A stretch of DNA of 20,076 bases from a virus (IMGVR_UViG_3300027365_000073:1-20076); one strand, 5' to 3'. Shown: positions 3,014 through 16,641, numbered from the stretch's first letter. Numbers and translations are program-made. Notes: generated by a model not told the origin, from the letters alone.

Positions 3014-3298
3014 TCATGCAAACCGTGGATCATCTTTGCGAAAACCAATCACAATAGCTTCAATCAAAGCAATCAGCGATGGGATGCCAGTCCACACGAA
3101 TGCAATCATTAGTAAACCAAAGATTACATTAGATCCTCCACCAAGATAGAATCGATGGATGCCCAGACCTCCCAGAAATAGCGCAAGAAGGACAAAGATC
3201 GCTTTACTTTTAGTACCCCTCTCTACCGTCGGATGACCGCACTTGGGACATGCCAGGGCTTCTTCACTCATTTCACTGCCACAATGTTTACAAAACAT
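3014..3298 (-). CDS. Zinc-ribbon plus TM2-domain membrane protein
   Basis: 94 residues from the ATG at 3298, chosen because GGAGAG is correctly spaced before it; an in-frame ATG upstream at 3322 has no such site. Residues 3-20 form a zinc ribbon (CKHC ... CPKC, Cys 3, 6, 17, 20). A TM2-type domain follows, with hydrophobic segments at about 33-48 and 57-86 and the signature GIHRFYLGG (46-54) in the connecting stretch. TM2 proteins are small integral membrane proteins common in bacteria; their role is largely unknown, and the zinc ribbon would face the cytoplasm. In a phage early region, an envelope function such as immunity or host interaction is a guess. It heads the run of coupled genes leading to the RNA ligase. 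Confidence 0.85.
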   Translation of the reverse strand: MFCKHCGSEMSEEALACPKCGHPTVERGTKSKAIFVLLALFLGGLGIHRFYLGGGSNVIFGLLMIAFVWTGIPSLIALIEAIVIGFRKDDPRFA

Positions 3299-3333
3299 AA
3301 TACTCTCCATTTCGTAGTTCATTCTTGATTAGA

Positions 3334-7002: not shown

Positions 7003-7938
7003 TTATAGGGTTTCCTCTTTATCTAAGATATTTTTACCAACTTTTAATTTGGCTGGAACTGCATTATTACACACTTGTTTACTAAAGACAATCACATTTT
7101 TCTTTGTTGGATCATTTTTAACTTTTTGTGTTCTCCCATTAAAGTAATCATCACCAGGTTTCGTTTCAGATAATTTATTAATTTCGCCATTAGTCCATTG
7201 TGGGTATTTTAAGTGTTTTAAACTATTTTCGTTTATTGATCCATTGCCTCTATACCATCCTGGACCAGGGCATTCATGAGATCTTGTTGTTTCTTTGCCA
7301 TTAGTCCAAAATTTCATCTTTCCTGTAGTTTTTCCACCTTCAGAACTCCATTTCTTATGTTCTTCTAAATGAAATTGCTTGGCGTTCTCCCAAGATATTT
7401 TACCTGCTTTACTAGAATATTCTTTAACATATTCTTCATTTTGTTCTCTCCATTCTTTAGAATAAAATCCAGATCTAGTACCCGTTAAATTAAGCGCAAG
7501 ACCACCAGCTCTGTTTCTTTCTTTGTTTAAATCGTGTATAGGAATAAAACCAGGTAATACATTTATTAGTTTTCCATCATTGGAAACTAAACGCCCAAAT
7601 TGCTCTATAAGCTTATTTTCTAGTTCATATGCTTCTTTCTCAGTCAATCCATAATCAAAAAGATATACCACTGGAGGTTCATTCATTGTATAAAGATACT
7701 TCATAAGCTTATTCTTAAAAGATTTCTCGTCTCGACACATTAGATGTAAATATGCACGATTGCCTTTACCTTTACCTATATAAAATGGCTCGCCACCATC
7801 ATATAAACCATAAACATAATATGGCATGTCTTCAGAAAGAGAATTTATTACAGATTTGAATGATCTAAATTCTTCGTCAATTATGTCTTTCATATCTAAA
7901 TCAAGACCATCAATCAACCTCTTATTAGCAATATACAT
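7003..7938 (-). CDS. GIY-YIG family endonuclease, probable free-standing homing enzyme
   Basis: 311 residues. The GIY-YIG nuclease domain lies at about 38-125: YVYGLY (41-46), FYIGKGKGNRAYLHL (52-66, with the catalytic-type Arg after the YIGKG strand) and a Glu-containing helix EKEAYELENKLIEQFG (near 100-115). The C-terminal half carries DNA-binding-type modules: SSKAGKISWENAKQFH and SSEGGKTTGKMKFWTNG look like repeats, and WTNG recurs at 211-214 and 248-251, each followed by a Gly/Pro-rich turn. Such W(T/N)NG modules occur in phage homing endonucleases. The base composition looks more AT-rich than in gene 41 or the rIIA region. The stop codon abuts the uvsX start and its last codons carry the uvsX ribosome-binding site. 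Homing is the usual role of such genes; target site unknown. Confidence 0.85.
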   Translation of the reverse strand: MYIANKRLIDGLDLDMKDIIDEEFRSFKSVINSLSEDMPYYVYGLYDGGEPFYIGKGKGNRAYLHLMCRDEKSFKNKLMKYLYTMNEPPVVYLFDYGLTEKEAYELENKLIEQFGRLVSNDGKLINVLPGFIPIHDLNKERNRAGGLALNLTGTRSGFYSKEWREQNEEYVKEYSSKAGKISWENAKQFHLEEHKKWSSEGGKTTGKMKFWTNGKETTRSHECPGPGWYRGNGSINENSLKHLKYPQWTNGEINKLSETKPGDDYFNGRTQKVKNDPTKKNVIVFSKQVCNNAVPAKLKVGKNILDKEETL

Positions 7939-11228: not shown

Positions 11229-11747
11229 TCAATAATCGCGTTGAGTATAGCGCTGGTAGTTTTCATAGTTCTTAAGCATATATAGAAGATAAATGTCTTC
11301 TGATTTAAATCCCATTGCAACAAAGATATTGAGAATAAAGTGCCAAACATCGATAAATTCCATCAGCATTTCCATGCGATCATCGTCTGGCATTTCACTT
11401 AGTAGTTCAGAAGTCAGTTTTCCATGATCAGATTTCCAACGCTTCCACACAGCAGACGCAGCCTTTTCACCATTAGACATTCCGCCAATTGATGTTTTGA
11501 GTTCACGATATTCATCAAGGATTGCATCAAAGTTACGATCAATCCAATCAACGAGCTCACCTTTGGTCTGAATATCAGAAGGCTTCATGTTGAATTCTGG
11601 AAGCTTCTCAGCAAGGACTGATTGTAACCACTCCTGAGTATCTAGCATGTCCTGAAGAGGGTCTGGTGAAGACTCGCGCTGGTTCAGGATTTCTTGTACC
11701 TTTTCTTGATCTTTGATTAGATTTGCACAGCTATTAAATTCAGACAT
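11229..11747 (-). CDS. 56: dCTP/dUTP pyrophosphatase, T4 gp56-like
   Basis: 172 residues, essentially the length of T4 gp56. It matches gp56 as I remember it: an FNxCAxLI start, DPLQDMLDTQEWLQ, ILDEYRELKTSIG (metal-binding Glu motif), GMSNGEKAASAVWKRWK, and EFIDVWHFILNIFVAMG (second acidic motif, ExxD), ending in a Tyr/Asn-rich helix. This all-alpha NTP pyrophosphatase hydrolyses dCTP and dUTP to the monophosphates. That keeps cytosine out of phage DNA and supplies dCMP to gp42 and dUMP to thymidylate synthesis. It closes the modification operon, 8 bases after the second methyltransferase, with AAGGA before its ATG. This supports a genome in which hydroxymethylcytosine replaces cytosine. Confidence 0.92.
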   Translation of the reverse strand: MSEFNSCANLIKDQEKVQEILNQRESSPDPLQDMLDTQEWLQSVLAEKLPEFNMKPSDIQTKGELVDWIDRNFDAILDEYRELKTSIGGMSNGEKAASAVWKRWKSDHGKLTSELLSEMPDDDRMEMLMEFIDVWHFILNIFVAMGFKSEDIYLLYMLKNYENYQRYTQRDY

Positions 11748-11755
11748 ACGATTCC

Positions 11756-12925
11756 TTAAAATAATGTATTAACGTGAGAGTTTGATTCGTATTCGACTTC
11801 TTGAGATTTATTATTTTGTTTGATAAAGTTTGAAGTCGACATCGGAAGTTCATTATTCATGAACTTGATAGATTCTATCACCATATCACGAGATGTACAT
11901 ACCGGAACCGTTTGTCCAATATGCTCGTAATTAGTTTTTCCTTTCAACAGTTCAAAATCATGTGGAAATCCCATCATGTGTAGTGCTTCACGAATTGTAA
12001 TGTTTCGTTCTTCAATTGGATGCAGTGTATCTACCATATTACGTGATATCACACCATCCATCACAGACTCATAGATATTGATTGATGAATCCCAGATTTC
12101 ACCTCCATTTGCGTATTTCTCTAAAGCATATGCTCCGAGTTCTTTTGCCTTTTCGTTGTTAGTTTCAACTGCCCAACTATAAAAATCGTTCATCAAATCA
12201 TTCTTGATAATATATTTTAGACATGTTCGATATCCTTTAACTACTGATTGAACATCTCCATATCTATGCTTTAAGAAATGATAAAAAGGTTCATGTTCAA
12301 CCTTGTTTCCAATTTGAATATCATTCTGTAGTTGTATTCCACTCACTGTGCTAATATATTCAGCAAAATCAAGAGACTTACGCCTATAGAAATTCATATA
12401 CGGCGCTGTTTCTGATTTCCATATTACCATGAATGTTCTATAACGGCGTTGTGGAATTCCATGATAATGTGTAGAAGTAAAATACAAAGACATCGAGTAC
12501 CCACGTGATTCAATCATTTCACGAACTTGACTAACGATCGAATCACCGCCAGTTGTATATAAACGTGGTGCGTTTTCAACAATGATAACTTTGGGATCAA
12601 AATTATCCAAAGGAAACTGAATAGACTTATAAATCCATTCGTTCTGTTTGGCAGTTTCGCCTTTCACCTCTTCATTCTTACCCGTATTAAGCATGCTTAA
12701 ACCAGAACAAAGAGGTGTACATACAACTAGATCATATTGATCATCATACGTTTCTTTATCGTTGAGTGTTACAAAATCAACATCTTTCCAATAGTTCTTA
12801 AGATGCGAATCATTATGTTTAAACTCATCATATGTGAATATTTTGCGCGGGAGGTTTCCCGTTGCTTCATACGCACCTAACGGGAAACCTCCACACAATG
12901 GAATGAAAGCTGTCCAATTGACCAT
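11756..12925 (-). CDS. C5-cytosine methyltransferase paralogue 2, with polymerase-like C-terminal HVNTLF
   Basis: 389 residues of the C5-cytosine methyltransferase fold. A divergent motif I PLCGGFPLG (9-17) lacks the usual acidic start. Motif IV is CTPLCSGLS with the nucleophile Cys73, motif VI VENAP (Glu117), motif VIII IPQRRYR (157-163), and motif X GQTVPV, where GNSVP is usual. Between VIII and X lies a recognition-type region of roughly 140 residues. It is clearly related to the gene just upstream (shared CTPxC, ENAP, SLYxTST, HGIPQ, ALHMMGFPHDFELL), so the pair is a tandem duplication. The last six residues, HVNTLF, are identical to those of gp43, which suggests binding to the phage clamp. 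The start follows the upstream stop after one base (TAACATG) with a weak SD, implying coupling. Actual reaction on hmC DNA unknown. Confidence 0.88.
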   Translation of the reverse strand: MVNWTAFIPLCGGFPLGAYEATGNLPRKIFTYDEFKHNDSHLKNYWKDVDFVTLNDKETYDDQYDLVVCTPLCSGLSMLNTGKNEEVKGETAKQNEWIYKSIQFPLDNFDPKVIIVENAPRLYTTGGDSIVSQVREMIESRGYSMSLYFTSTHYHGIPQRRYRTFMVIWKSETAPYMNFYRRKSLDFAEYISTVSGIQLQNDIQIGNKVEHEPFYHFLKHRYGDVQSVVKGYRTCLKYIIKNDLMNDFYSWAVETNNEKAKELGAYALEKYANGGEIWDSSINIYESVMDGVISRNMVDTLHPIEERNITIREALHMMGFPHDFELLKGKTNYEHIGQTVPVCTSRDMVIESIKFMNNELPMSTSNFIKQNNKSQEVEYESNSHVNTLF

Positions 12926-12926
12926 G

Positions 12927-14126
12927 TTAAAGCTCTAATGTATTCGTTGGTTGATCTTCAGAAGATTGATAGTCGATTTTCTGCTTATAGTTATTCTGTT
13001 TAATTAGTGTCGAATCAGACATTTCCAAATCACCATCTAAAAACTTAACAGCTTCTAATACCATATCACGTGCAGTATAGGCTGGAACATTTTGACAGAT
13101 GTGATTCATGTTCTTACGCGATCCGAGTAGTTCAAAATCATGTGGAAATCCCATAATATGCAGAGCTTCTTTAATAGTAAGAGAACGATCTTCTTTTGGA
13201 TGAATTGTAGATATTAGATTGCGTCCAATTAATGCAGCAATTCGATCATCATACACATTCATTGAACCATCCCAAATATTCTTTCCATCGCCAAGTTTCA
13301 TTTTAGCATGCTCAGCTAATTTTAATCCTTTCTCATTATCAGTATCATTAAAGTATTGGATAGCTTCATCTAGTAGATTCTGATGATAGACGTATTGAAA
13401 TGCTGTTTTCTTACCAACTTCTTTTATAGCTTCACGTACATCATCAACTTTAGTTTTTAAGAATAAGAAATACGGATCTTCGAGTAATTTAGGATTAGTC
13501 AGATCACTATTATCATTATCAACTTTACTCAACCAACCTTCAAAGTCTTCACGCTCTCGATCATAATAATTGATAATAGGTGCAGTTGAGCTATTCCATA
13601 AAATAGCGAATGTACGATCACGTGCTTGTGGAATTCCATGAAACATTGTCGATGTCTTGTATAGAGTCATCGAATATCCATGATCTTGTGCAATCTTATA
13701 TAGATTATTAGCTACTTGTTTGCCTTTGGTGGTGTATAGCCCAGGAGCATTTTCGATTAACACTACTTTAGCGTTCAACTTTTCAATAGCATCAGTAGCA
13801 GAAATATACATCCAATCATTCTTTGCACATCCAGCGCCACGTGCTTCTGGTGTCTTTCCAGAATTGAACGATGATAGACCCGCACACGGAGGCGTACACA
13901 TCACAATATCAACATCAGTATAAGAATCTTCTTGTTCTGAAATGTTGATGTAATCAATGTTTCTATTCTTAATCGCATTTTGATAATAAACATAATGTGA
14001 ATCGTTAGCTTCGAATCCAGAATATGAATAGATCGCTTTTGGCGGTTTTTCTAATGCAAGTTCAGCTCCTAGTGGAAAGCCGCCGATGAGTGGAATCACC
14101 GGCGCAAAAGTATATTGAGATGCCAT
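12927..14126 (-). CDS. C5-cytosine methyltransferase paralogue 1
   Basis: 399 residues of the C5-cytosine methyltransferase fold. Divergent motif I PLIGGFPLG (12-20); motif IV CTPPCAGLS with the nucleophile Cys81 (the usual PCQ is PCA); motif VI ENAP (125-128); motif VIII IPQARDR (165-171); late ALHIMGFPHDFELL; motif X HICQNVPAYTARDM, lacking the standard Gly-Asn pair. The C-terminal extension (IKQNN linker, then NTLEL at the end) parallels the linker and NTLF tail of paralogue 2. It sits directly after the glycosyltransferase, overlapping its stop by one base, with AAGGA before the ATG. A classical member would methylate C5 in a specific site. In this hmC-making operon, the target could be residual cytosine, host DNA or a new reaction on hmC (open). 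Confidence 0.88.
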   Translation of the reverse strand: MASQYTFAPVIPLIGGFPLGAELALEKPPKAIYSYSGFEANDSHYVYYQNAIKNRNIDYINISEQEDSYTDVDIVMCTPPCAGLSSFNSGKTPEARGAGCAKNDWMYISATDAIEKLNAKVVLIENAPGLYTTKGKQVANNLYKIAQDHGYSMTLYKTSTMFHGIPQARDRTFAILWNSSTAPIINYYDREREDFEGWLSKVDNDNSDLTNPKLLEDPYFLFLKTKVDDVREAIKEVGKKTAFQYVYHQNLLDEAIQYFNDTDNEKGLKLAEHAKMKLGDGKNIWDGSMNVYDDRIAALIGRNLISTIHPKEDRSLTIKEALHIMGFPHDFELLGSRKNMNHICQNVPAYTARDMVLEAVKFLDGDLEMSDSTLIKQNNYKQKIDYQSSEDQPTNTLEL

Positions 14127-15373
14127 TAAGAATCCTTTTTGATATGTCTGTTAATATTAGACATCAGAGAAGAGAATGTACCGTCTGCCGATTGATGTGA
14201 CTTATAATATTCATATGCCATTTCACGCCAATCATCGCGCATCTGATCATCTTTAGCAAGTTGTTCCATTAGATTGTAACATTCATTCCAATTAGAACCA
14301 TCCTTTTCAATGAATACAGTCCCTGTGTCTTTGTCTTGTGCAATTGGATTGCCTGTTTGTTTATGGTAACAATAATCAAAGTAATTTTTGCGAAATACTG
14401 GAATACATCCGACAGACACAATTTCTGCATGCGTATATTCAATAGAATGTTCAAGGAAACGTGGATCTAGGCGTGATAACTGATAGCCAAAACCGCATTT
14501 AGATAGACGCTCAAGTAGTTCATCATTCTTATAAAAAGAAAATAGCGCTGGAAGTCCATTATAATATGGTTTTAGATCAATGTCTTCGATTTGATCTTTG
14601 AAATGGTTATGAAAATCGTATGATTGCTTGACATTAATGATAGCAGGTGATTGTTCAAGACCTTCAAATGTAATAAGGAAATCGCGACCCATGAGTTCCT
14701 GACAGAACTCGAACATCAGATCATAACCCTTGAAAGGAGCAGTTCGTCCAATCCACTTGTGATGATATGAGTCTTGTTCTGTAATTGGCTTCCAATACTT
14801 TTCACGTACATCTTCAAAATACATTCCAGGTTGGAAATTAATAATGGGAATGTCTTGTGCTTCTGAGGGTTCATCAAATAGACTATTGGCTTCGTGATCA
14901 ATAATAACGTCGTTCTTCTTTAACCAACGAACGAAATCACTATCTTTTGTAGCATGAGAAAAGATAACGTTCGCTGCGCGACATGATTCTTCAATACATC
15001 CATTACGAACAATGGACATATTATTGTGATCATGTTGAATGAATGCCATCTTGCCTTTGGATAGATCGATCAGTTGATTGAAACGTTCTAACACAATTTC
15101 TTTGCTTGATCGAACAGGAGGTAGAGAATTTAGAATAACAACATCAGCATCTTTAACGATTTTTTGTGCTACTTCAAACTCATCGTCTTTTCGAATTGAT
15201 GTCTTGGTAATTTTACTAAAGGAATGTGATTCTTTGCGTGACCAACGCTTATCGTCTACAGCCAAAATGTCGTAGTCATAGTTGTTTTTCTTAAACCATT
15301 TTTCCCATTCGATTGCGAATTTTGTGACACCGCATCCTTCAACTCCACGACCAAGTAAAAGCAAATATTTCAT
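14126..15373 (-). CDS. agt: Glycosyltransferase, T4 alpha-glucosyltransferase-like (hmC-DNA modification)
   Basis: 415 residues (T4 alpha-GT 400). It matches T4 alpha-GT along its length as I remember it: GRGVEGCGVTKFAIE (8-22), DADVVILNSLPP, a QHDH motif (113-116), RAANVIFSH, IINFQPGMYFEDVREKYW, KWIGRTAPFKGYDLMFEF (208-211 IGRT), EGLEQSPAI, GFGYQLSRLDPRFLEHSIEYTHAE and GCIPVF. This is a GT-B fold enzyme that, in T4, transfers glucose from UDP-glucose in alpha linkage to hydroxymethylcytosine in DNA and is known to interact with the gp45 clamp. The sugar used here cannot be read from sequence. AAGGA lies 10 bases before the ATG, and gene 42 ends 13 bases upstream, consistent with one operon making and then glycosylating hmC. 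Confidence 0.9.
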   Translation of the reverse strand: MKYLLLLGRGVEGCGVTKFAIEWEKWFKKNNYDYDILAVDDKRWSRKESHSFSKITKTSIRKDDEFEVAQKIVKDADVVILNSLPPVRSSKEIVLERFNQLIDLSKGKMAFIQHDHNNMSIVRNGCIEESCRAANVIFSHATKDSDFVRWLKKNDVIIDHEANSLFDEPSEAQDIPIINFQPGMYFEDVREKYWKPITEQDSYHHKWIGRTAPFKGYDLMFEFCQELMGRDFLITFEGLEQSPAIINVKQSYDFHNHFKDQIEDIDLKPYYNGLPALFSFYKNDELLERLSKCGFGYQLSRLDPRFLEHSIEYTHAEIVSVGCIPVFRKNYFDYCYHKQTGNPIAQDKDTGTVFIEKDGSNWNECYNLMEQLAKDDQMRDDWREMAYEYYKSHQSADGTFSSLMSNINRHIKKDS

Positions 15374-15386
15374 ATTCTTCTGTTCC

Positions 15387-16064
15387 TTACTTAACTAGAT
15401 GAAAATGACGATCATAAATGTGTGCTGATCCTGCAGTCCAGATAATATCGCCTTTGATGACTTTATCGAACGAGAATTTATTATACTCTTTGACTAACTT
15501 ATCAAGTACATAATTAGCAAACGCCCTGTCATTCTTATATCCATATAGCATATCATTTGAGCGCATTCTTACGTGAAGACTCAAAGCATCATCACGAATA
15601 AAGAATTGATAAGCGTCTGTGCACATAAAATCAGAACGTCCATTATGGTTATAATCATTCCACATTTGAGGACGCGTGAAAATAGCTTGCGCACGACGAG
15701 AGTTTGGATTGTTCAAAAGCTCATGTAGAACATGATCATATTGAAATCCATTTTCACCAGAGAACAAACACCACCCATAGTTAGAATTGATCTTACCATT
15801 CTTATCAGAGACTTGATTCCAAATATCTGGTGTCTTACCTGGGATATCTTTTACATACAATGATTTACTTTCGTACCAAGCAATTTCTCGTTCAACATAA
15901 TCCCAATTCACTTCACCAAAGATTGCATCTTCGTCTGCTAGAAAAGTTAGACCGATAATTTCAATCGTTTTTACACCTGTTTTATCAGTCACAAAATCTT
16001 CATTGTCGAGTCGGTCAATGAATTCACGACGAACGTCATTTACATTTGGCAGAAAATTATTCAT
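15387..16064 (-). CDS. 42: dCMP hydroxymethylase, T4 gp42-like
   Basis: 225 residues of the thymidylate-synthase fold. It tracks T4 gp42 closely: DKTGVKTIEIIG, YESKSLYVKDIPG, INSNYGW, RRAQAIFTRPQMW and SDFMCTDAYQF with the catalytic Cys148. RMRSNDMLYGYKNDRAF places Asp179 where thymidylate synthases have Asn; that Asp gives T4 gp42 its cytosine specificity, and both residues have the T4 numbering. It makes 5-hydroxymethyl-dCMP from dCMP with methylene-tetrahydrofolate. The protein ends soon after HIYDRHFHLVK, about 20 residues earlier than T4 gp42; all active-site residues listed are retained. AAGGAG precedes the ATG with 8-base spacing, and the start overlaps the kinase stop codon (ATGA). 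Confidence 0.95.
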   Translation of the reverse strand: MNNFLPNVNDVRREFIDRLDNEDFVTDKTGVKTIEIIGLTFLADEDAIFGEVNWDYVEREIAWYESKSLYVKDIPGKTPDIWNQVSDKNGKINSNYGWCLFSGENGFQYDHVLHELLNNPNSRRAQAIFTRPQMWNDYNHNGRSDFMCTDAYQFFIRDDALSLHVRMRSNDMLYGYKNDRAFANYVLDKLVKEYNKFSFDKVIKGDIIWTAGSAHIYDRHFHLVK

Positions 16065-16588
16065 TTAAGAAACTCCTTAACAGTTGGAAGTAGATTATCA
16101 AATCCACCATCATTAGTAATATGGTAATGTAATTTATGAGGTACGCAAGAGTTATTATACACCTGTAGAAATCTCTCTGACACTCTCTCGATCATTTCTG
16201 GTTTGATAGAGTATGTATATCCATCCTCTCGCTCAATGATGCCCTCAGGTGAATCTGTGAGGAGAATAAGACGGCAATCAATATCTGACAAGAACTTTCT
16301 TTCAATGTCGTAAACATAGTCAGCAGATTGCTGTCTGAAAACGGGTCCATAGACATCTTCACCAAGATGCGATCTATCTAGAATAACATCCCAACCTTGT
16401 TCACAGAGTGTCCTAGACATCCCTAGAACCTCACTGTAGTGCTCTTGCGACCAGCCCGAATGGTATCCATCAGGTGGAGACACGCAGTGAATAGAAGTCG
16501 TTCTAGGACTAGTCAGGATGCATTTACGAATATCTTTGATGAGAGTTGACTTACCACAATTGTCGTTGCCTTCGATGATAACAATCAT
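16061..16588 (-). CDS. P-loop deoxynucleoside monophosphate kinase (thymidylate-kinase-like)
   Basis: 175 residues from the ATG at 16588 (AGGGA upstream). A longer in-frame start at 16639 would begin inside the terminator stem and is rejected. A Walker A GNDNCGKST lies at 7-15, DRSHLGEDVYGPVF near residue 70 is the DR(S/x) catalytic-region pattern of thymidylate-kinase-like enzymes, and CRLILLTDSPE is a following beta strand. The family phosphorylates dNMP to dNDP. Because the gene overlaps gene 42 by 4 bases and heads the operon, hydroxymethyl-dCMP is the likely substrate, as for T4 gp1. It looks thymidylate-kinase-like rather than like T4 gp1 as I remember it. Substrate is inferred from context. 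Confidence 0.85.
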   Translation of the reverse strand: MIVIIEGNDNCGKSTLIKDIRKCILTSPRTTSIHCVSPPDGYHSGWSQEHYSEVLGMSRTLCEQGWDVILDRSHLGEDVYGPVFRQQSADYVYDIERKFLSDIDCRLILLTDSPEGIIEREDGYTYSIKPEMIERVSERFLQVYNNSCVPHKLHYHITNDGGFDNLLPTVKEFLK

Positions 16589-16617
16589 AATTTTCCCTAT
16601 AGTATAAACGAAACAAA

Positions 16618-16641
16618 GGATGGAGGGAAATCCCTCCATCC
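16618..16641 (-). terminator. Rho-independent terminator after the HTH/acidic protein
   Basis: The minus strand reads GGATGGAGGG, loop ATTT, CCCTCCATCC, then TTTGTTTCGTTT. A 10-bp perfect stem plus T-rich tail, 23 bases after the stop codon of the gene at 16665. It separates the early genes from the modification operon. No consensus promoter is visible between it and the kinase start, so the operon may use a middle (activator-dependent) promoter or leak-through. Confidence 0.9.

Follow-up and report, generated by a model that had tools for sequence, protein, structure and literature searches.

A phage protein family with a rebuilt C5-cytosine-methyltransferase fold, linked to hydroxymethylcytosine genes, may act on the hydroxymethyl group of phage DNA

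The viral record IMGVR_UViG_3300027365_000073 (20,076 nucleotides; this whole 20 kb stretch is called the window below) carries two adjacent genes, MTase-A and MTase-B, for proteins of the C5-cytosine-methyltransferase fold, inside a cassette of genes for 5-hydroxymethylcytosine (hmC) DNA. On the basis of their residues and gene linkage, we propose, with a probability of roughly 0.4, that the two belong to a phage family dedicated to hmC DNA and carrying out a C5 chemistry other than methylation. Slightly more tentatively, this may be a natural and widespread enzyme class that uses the fold without S-adenosylmethionine (SAM) and remodels the hydroxymethyl group of hmC at chosen sites of the phage genome. 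With the same reserve, such SAM-free remodelling could consist of erasure to cytosine or attachment of a nucleophile, the in vivo form of side reactions seen in vitro. A preliminary description of the window had listed a new reaction on hmC among the possible roles of two "intact-looking" methyltransferases. That role is the one we favour, and the reaction itself we infer; the intactness holds for the catalytic residues, which are in place, and not for the SAM and C5 pocket including motif I, which is rebuilt in MTase-A, in MTase-B and throughout the family.

The two genes are as follows.

12927 to 14126, minus strand: MTase-A, divergent C5-cytosine-methyltransferase fold (PF00145, E 1.5e-22; Cys81, Glu125, Arg169, Arg171)
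11756 to 12925, minus strand: MTase-B, diverged paralogue (PF00145, E 1.7e-20; Cys73, Glu117, Arg161, Arg163)

With 74 and 81 bits against a PF00145 cut-off of 22, both proteins fall within the fold family, and they are 42% identical to each other. The catalytic Cys (81 and 73) and the ENAP and QxRxR motifs are all present, as the preliminary description reported. The structural comparison with M.HhaI that it had proposed was run for MTase-A: the AlphaFold2 model (predicted local distance difference test, pLDDT, 88.9) found M.HhaI (E 8e-14) and M.HaeIII as the best solved structures in Foldseek. MTase-B is predicted from its sequence to share this fold. Among the viral predicted structures of BFVD, the best match was gp301 of Bacillus phage G, with a template-modelling (TM) score of 0.79, compared with 0.5-0.6 for ordinary viral C5-methyltransferases. 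Both proteins scored under the curated cut-off of the NCBIfam dcm profile TIGR00675 (67.7 bits for MTase-A and 58.0 for MTase-B; cut-off 100.65), and the match to that profile starts only at residues 39-43, beyond motif I.

To locate the differences, 39 non-redundant family members were compared with 74 canonical phage C5-methyltransferases in M.HhaI numbering. Cys81, Ser85, Glu119, Asn120, Arg163 and Arg165 are each kept in 39/39, and the catalytic Cys of motif IV, the Glu of motif VI and the Arg-x-Arg of motif VIII are present in every member, MTase-A and MTase-B included. Motif I, in contrast, reads I/V-P-L-I-G-G in place of FxGxGG: Phe18 (71/74 canonical enzymes) is replaced by Ile or Val in 36/39, Ala19 by Pro in 37/39, and Gly20 (73/74) by Leu in 37/39. 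Glu/Asp40, found in 73/74 canonical enzymes, has no conserved counterpart in the family, whichever plausible alignment is used. The family thus lacks the combination of FxGxGG and a ribose-binding acid (Glu40) expected of a functional dcm enzyme. Around the C5 pocket, all 39 members carry Ala or Ser for Gln82 (63/74), Leu for Phe84, Ala for Val121 (74/74) and Gln for Asn304. Klimasauskas and colleagues cut Gln82 and Asn304 of M.HhaI to Ala and thereby widened its pocket; methyl transfer by the Q82A/N304A enzyme was reduced and transfer of larger groups improved (PMC10666283). Considering this precedent together with the family substitutions, the C5 pocket appears to be widened and the donor site changed, with the ring-activating machinery intact. 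The ratio of non-synonymous to synonymous changes (dN/dS) has a median of 0.10 (range 0.02-0.22, over 700 pairs), and the family is under strong purifying selection. That ratio and the invariant catalytic residues rule out a degenerate, dying methyltransferase.

The genes of this family stand beside those for hmC synthesis. The T4 gene 42 type dCMP hydroxymethylase (gp42) was present at 30/30 family loci having at least 6.5 kb of upstream sequence and, in an enlarged set with enough upstream sequence, accompanied 44 of the 46 distinct family proteins. The two exceptions, cyanophages S-TIM5 and S-TIM54, have a ThyA with Asp at position 177 and an AGT (alpha-glucosyltransferase) homologue in the genome, so that every one of the 46 proteins belongs to a virus encoding a thymidylate-synthase homologue of the dCMP type (Asp177). 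None of the 80 canonical phage C5-methyltransferase loci, including the 28 of at least 15 kb, contained gp42 (Fisher p about 1e-18 or lower). The reverse test gave the same picture: of the 36 gp42 loci whose downstream sequence reached 8 kb or more, 23 had a family gene and none a canonical C5-methyltransferase. Chance neighbourhood is ruled out by 46/46 as against 0/28 in the controls. The ThyA of S-TIM5 (L004:8784-9620), annotated as thymidylate synthase, carries Asp where the E. coli enzyme has Asn177 and probably acts on dCMP; S-TIM5 DNA is predicted, from this protein and the annotated AGT, to contain modified cytosine.

What lies between gp42 and the family gene differs from locus to locus: a T4-type AGT or a TET-associated glycosyltransferase, a GT-B protein with a cytidylyltransferase and a HAD-kinase, or NTP-transferase-kinase (APH) fusions. 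The constant presence of gp42 and the family gene amid such varying decorating genes suggests that the family enzyme acts on hmC or its making, and not on one decoration. In L015:1354-2223, and likewise in L011 and L012, all close relatives of the window, a TET-associated glycosyltransferase (PF20691/phrog_842) directly follows gp42 and takes the place that AGT has in the window. In L095:5828-7998, L094 and L092, an hmdU-DNA-kinase-like gene (PF18723) and an inositol-1-phosphate-synthase-like gene lie in between, which may point to a kinase-based route hypermodifying hmC, not 5-hydroxymethyluracil (hmU).

Profile scans detected 206 relatives in viral contigs, 80 of which were retrieved, and further relatives on 8 contigs listed as bacterial. 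Of those eight, six had gp42 within the retrieved stretch or phage-type genes alongside and are probably viral in origin. Cultured members occur in Pseudoalteromonas phage XG4, in cyanophages S-TIM5, S-TIM54, S-TIM61 and S-TIM66, and, distantly, in Bacillus phage G. In a maximum-likelihood tree, the family forms one clade (support 100/99), in which gp301 of phage G is basal; the other members share a branch 1.6 changes per column long, and the end branch of gp301 measures 2.1. We found no description of an altered C5-methyltransferase-like family in the open-access literature, and this widespread phage family is apparently undescribed so far.

The preliminary description knew of no system with the layout of the window. 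This holds for the tandem pair: exactly one PF00145 protein was found in each of 10 viral records searched and two in the window, no second locus of the enlarged set had a pair of family genes, and the pair appears unique to the window within our sample. It does not hold for a hydroxymethylase accompanied by one such enzyme, which recurs in many marine phages, in cultured S-TIM5 and XG4 and, distantly, in phage G. MTase-B branches separately from MTase-A on a long branch with weak support; given this placement and the absence of a second paired locus, a recent tandem duplication is unsupported. MTase-B also departs from near-invariant columns of the family, with Leu72 for Pro (PLC replaces PPC), Ser74, Cys11, Glu334, and Thr339 where the family otherwise always has Asn, and no orthologue above 45% identity was found in viral contigs. 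Because of these deviations and the lack of a closer relative, MTase-B may act on another target, or its activity may be modified.

How might such an enzyme act? Given hmC in vitro, DNMT3A/B and M.MpeI release the hydroxymethyl group as formaldehyde (PMC11347137), and eM.SssI couples thiols to it (PMC7176277). Since these reactions need Cys-dependent ring activation and not a methyl donor, we infer that C5-CH2OH chemistry on hmC within DNA could be the natural activity of the family. At a specific sequence in phage DNA, the enzyme would flip out an hmC; the Cys thiolate would attack C6 and the Glu would protonate N3, after which the activated ring would react at the C5-CH2OH without accepting a methyl group from SAM. 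The outcome would be dehydroxymethylation, or coupling of a nucleophile to the CH2, with SAM perhaps dispensable. The two paralogues of the window may serve two target sequences, judging from their divergence only, and the biological end might be unmodified cytosine at particular sites, another base or a handle.

Several points weigh against this proposal. Position 60 is acidic in 26/39 members and an aromatic residue is retained at 41, so that a nucleoside-type cofactor may still bind the family pocket; the family alignment is uncertain around motifs II, III and X. No family gene was found at 13 of the 36 gp42 loci, and hmC DNA therefore does not require the enzyme. Related phages (Thanatos) attach sugars to 5-hydroxycytosine instead (PMC12838424). 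What we say of function is drawn from residues and linkage, and is meant conditionally.

The main rival, which we regard as unlikely, is a C5 transferase with an altered cofactor, acting on residual cytosines left unmodified by leaky gp42 or gp56 and installing a non-methyl group. The group would come from an analogue of SAM or from a one-carbon donor, for instance in post-replicative restoration of hydroxymethyl groups. In the phage enzyme CmoX, the residue at position 304 underlies a switch to carboxy-SAM (Cx-SAM) as cofactor (PMC12783734); the family has Gln there in 39/39, and both a widened C5 pocket suited to a larger group and the constant pairing with gp42 fit such a transferase. The CmoX-like proteins among our control loci, however, keep the FxGxGG that the family has lost, and the varied family neighbourhoods share no conserved cofactor-synthesis gene. 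Conventional SAM-dependent enzymes making 5-methylcytosine on host DNA or on residual phage cytosines are a more doubtful explanation. All catalytic residues are present, the fold matches M.HhaI, and orphan C5-methyltransferases are common in phages. This reading nevertheless has to accommodate the loss of the FxGxGG Gly in 37/39, the non-conserved Glu40, V121A in 39/39 and the missed dcm cut-off, and it leaves unexplained a context exclusive to hmC (0/80 canonical controls).

We consider it improbable that the proteins are sequence-specific binders of hmC DNA that, perhaps through a covalent Cys adduct, mark or protect packaging or transcription sites without turnover. The retained base-flipping fold, the pocket changes, which would suit hmC binding, and two diverged paralogues able to read two sites are what such binders would show, but invariant Cys, Glu and both Arg in 39/39 are more than binding requires. 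Least probable by far is a relict of a methyltransferase-TET-glycosyltransferase pathway, kept after gp42 displaced the oxidation route. The PF20691 glycosyltransferase between gp42 and the family gene in L015, with the same cluster in L011 and L012, would accord with such a past. A dN/dS of about 0.1 and family-specific invariant residues speak instead for ongoing selection, and Tet_JBP had no match in 10 records, in a search that gave no match in the control genome either.

The remaining genes of the cassette are listed below in their order on the minus strand (16588-11229), in which MTase-A and MTase-B lie between AGT and the gp56-like gene.

16061 to 16588, minus strand: P-loop nucleotide kinase, thymidylate-kinase-like (weak Pfam Thymidylate_kin and phrog_761 matches); first cassette gene
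15387 to 16064, minus strand: dCMP hydroxymethylase, T4 gene 42 type (E 2e-76 against the T4 gp42 structure)
14126 to 15373, minus strand: DNA alpha-glucosyltransferase, T4 AGT family (PF11440, E 3.1e-63; T4 AGT chain, E 1.3e-71)
11229 to 11747, minus strand: gp56-type dCTP/dUTP pyrophosphatase (phrog_173, E 3e-24; 50% to annotated phage dCTP pyrophosphatases)

All genes lie where the preliminary description placed them, packed with overlaps of 4 or 1 bases or gaps of at most 13 bases: kinase and gp42 overlap by 4 bases, gp42 and AGT are 13 bases apart, AGT and MTase-A overlap by 1 base, and gaps of 1 and 8 bases separate MTase-A from MTase-B and MTase-B from the gp56-like gene. The kinase open reading frame spans 16061-16639 with its start ATG at 16588, and its orthologue adjoins gp42 in L006, L011 and L012. 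A terminator-like hairpin (16641-16618) lies just upstream of this ATG, a position consistent with the cassette from kinase to gp56 being a separate transcription unit. The alignment of the window gp42 with T4 dCMP hydroxymethylase covers 217 residues and shows the equivalents of Cys148 and Asp179 retained, as first reported; the protein is 58% identical to gp42 of Citrobacter phage Moon. The Asp at the specificity position of gp42 decides cytosine specificity, and selective sequencing has located Asp-type gp42 proteins on contigs with modified cytosine (PMC8670742). AGT and gp56 are plainly orthologous to their T4 counterparts. The window thus holds the components of a T4-type hmC cassette, gp42 with Cys148 and Asp179, a dCTPase and an hmC glucosyltransferase, and these identities together with the PF00145 matches bear out two C5-methyltransferase homologues in an hmC setting. 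From gp42, gp56 and AGT, the virus, represented by an uncultured fragment, is predicted to make hmC DNA. Ordinary methylation of its virion DNA is hard to reconcile with these three genes, as the preliminary description argued.

Elsewhere the window carries T4-like replication genes on the minus strand: a family B polymerase, supported by a Pfam profile search, and rIIA-like, RNA ligase-like, helicase and UvsX-like genes read from translations. Because no near relative of the window was found among the phage records searched, distant homology was used. A GIY-YIG homing-endonuclease-like gene (7003-7938, minus strand) abuts the uvsX-like gene, and the product of a small gene (3014-3322, minus strand), which combines a zinc-ribbon with a TM2-like membrane domain, is unusual for a T4-like replication region.

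If our proposal is true, the hmC pathway of many marine phages includes a second step, taken at the DNA level, and an enzyme family that wrote methyl marks has come to edit a hydroxymethyl mark already in place; an enzyme that erases hmC directly, or a tool for labelling hmC specifically, could follow. Cultured phages with a member (S-TIM5, XG4, Bacillus phage G) make a bench test feasible. The proposal would also warn that automatic annotation as "DNA methylase" in phages can mask a different chemistry.

Compared with M.HhaI and M.HaeIII of PF00145, the family shares the fold, the motif order, Cys81, Glu119, Arg163 and Arg165. It differs in its I/V-P-L-I-G-G motif I, in the replaced Val121, Gln82, Phe84 and Asn304, in a C-terminal extension with an invariant Asn, in having no restriction partner and always an hmC context, and in forming its own clade on the 1.6-substitution branch. 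CmoX, the C5-carboxymethyltransferase of Synechococcus phage S-B43 (PDB 8YF3), gave the best match by sequence when solved structures were compared with the family profile. Like the proposed family, it is a phage C5-methyltransferase homologue with a non-methyl chemistry and a change at position 304. CmoX, however, retains motif I together with the residues that contact adenosine, employs Arg350 with its cofactor Cx-SAM and has CmoA/CmoY neighbours, whereas the family has Gln and a gp42 neighbour. Phe25, Glu47, Phe48 and Asp69 of CmoX hold the cofactor adenosine (PMC12783734); of the equivalent family positions, 18 and 40 are changed, and 41 and 60 are not clearly lost. The family reads TPPC or TPLC with Gln at 304, not SPPC with Arg; the missing Arg and the different motif I rule out a CmoX-type carboxymethyltransferase. 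No CmoA was identified among the family neighbours examined, in which no CmoA-specific search was run. Control loci L136, L140, L149, L153, L157 and L189 encode CmoX-like C5-methyltransferases (SPPC, Arg at 304), in tandem pairs in L140 and L153.

Bacillus phage G gp301 resembles the family in NCPCSGLS, ENAP, IAQGVP and an altered motif I; unlike the family, it is very divergent, keeps Phe18 and Glu40 and belongs to a phage of a Gram-positive host. Its surroundings (NC_023719.1, 219303-234494; L109, L113) hold an Asp-type thymidylate synthase (gp319), a dCMP deaminase (gp317), two alpha-glucosyltransferases, a HAD protein, a nucleotidyltransferase and an APH-like protein, apparently an unrecognised cytosine hypermodification cluster. 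The hmC pathway of T4 shares with the window orthologous gp42, gp56 and AGT, which are clustered in the window. To our knowledge, T4 and its enterobacterial relatives lack a C5-methyltransferase-like partner, and in the gp42-locus survey the family enzyme was absent from L235 and L261, two T4-type-looking contigs of near-genome size. Some family loci resemble the phage TET/TAGT pathway in having a TET-associated glycosyltransferase beside gp42 (L015); unlike that pathway, they would obtain hmC from gp42, and their methyltransferase is of a non-canonical type.

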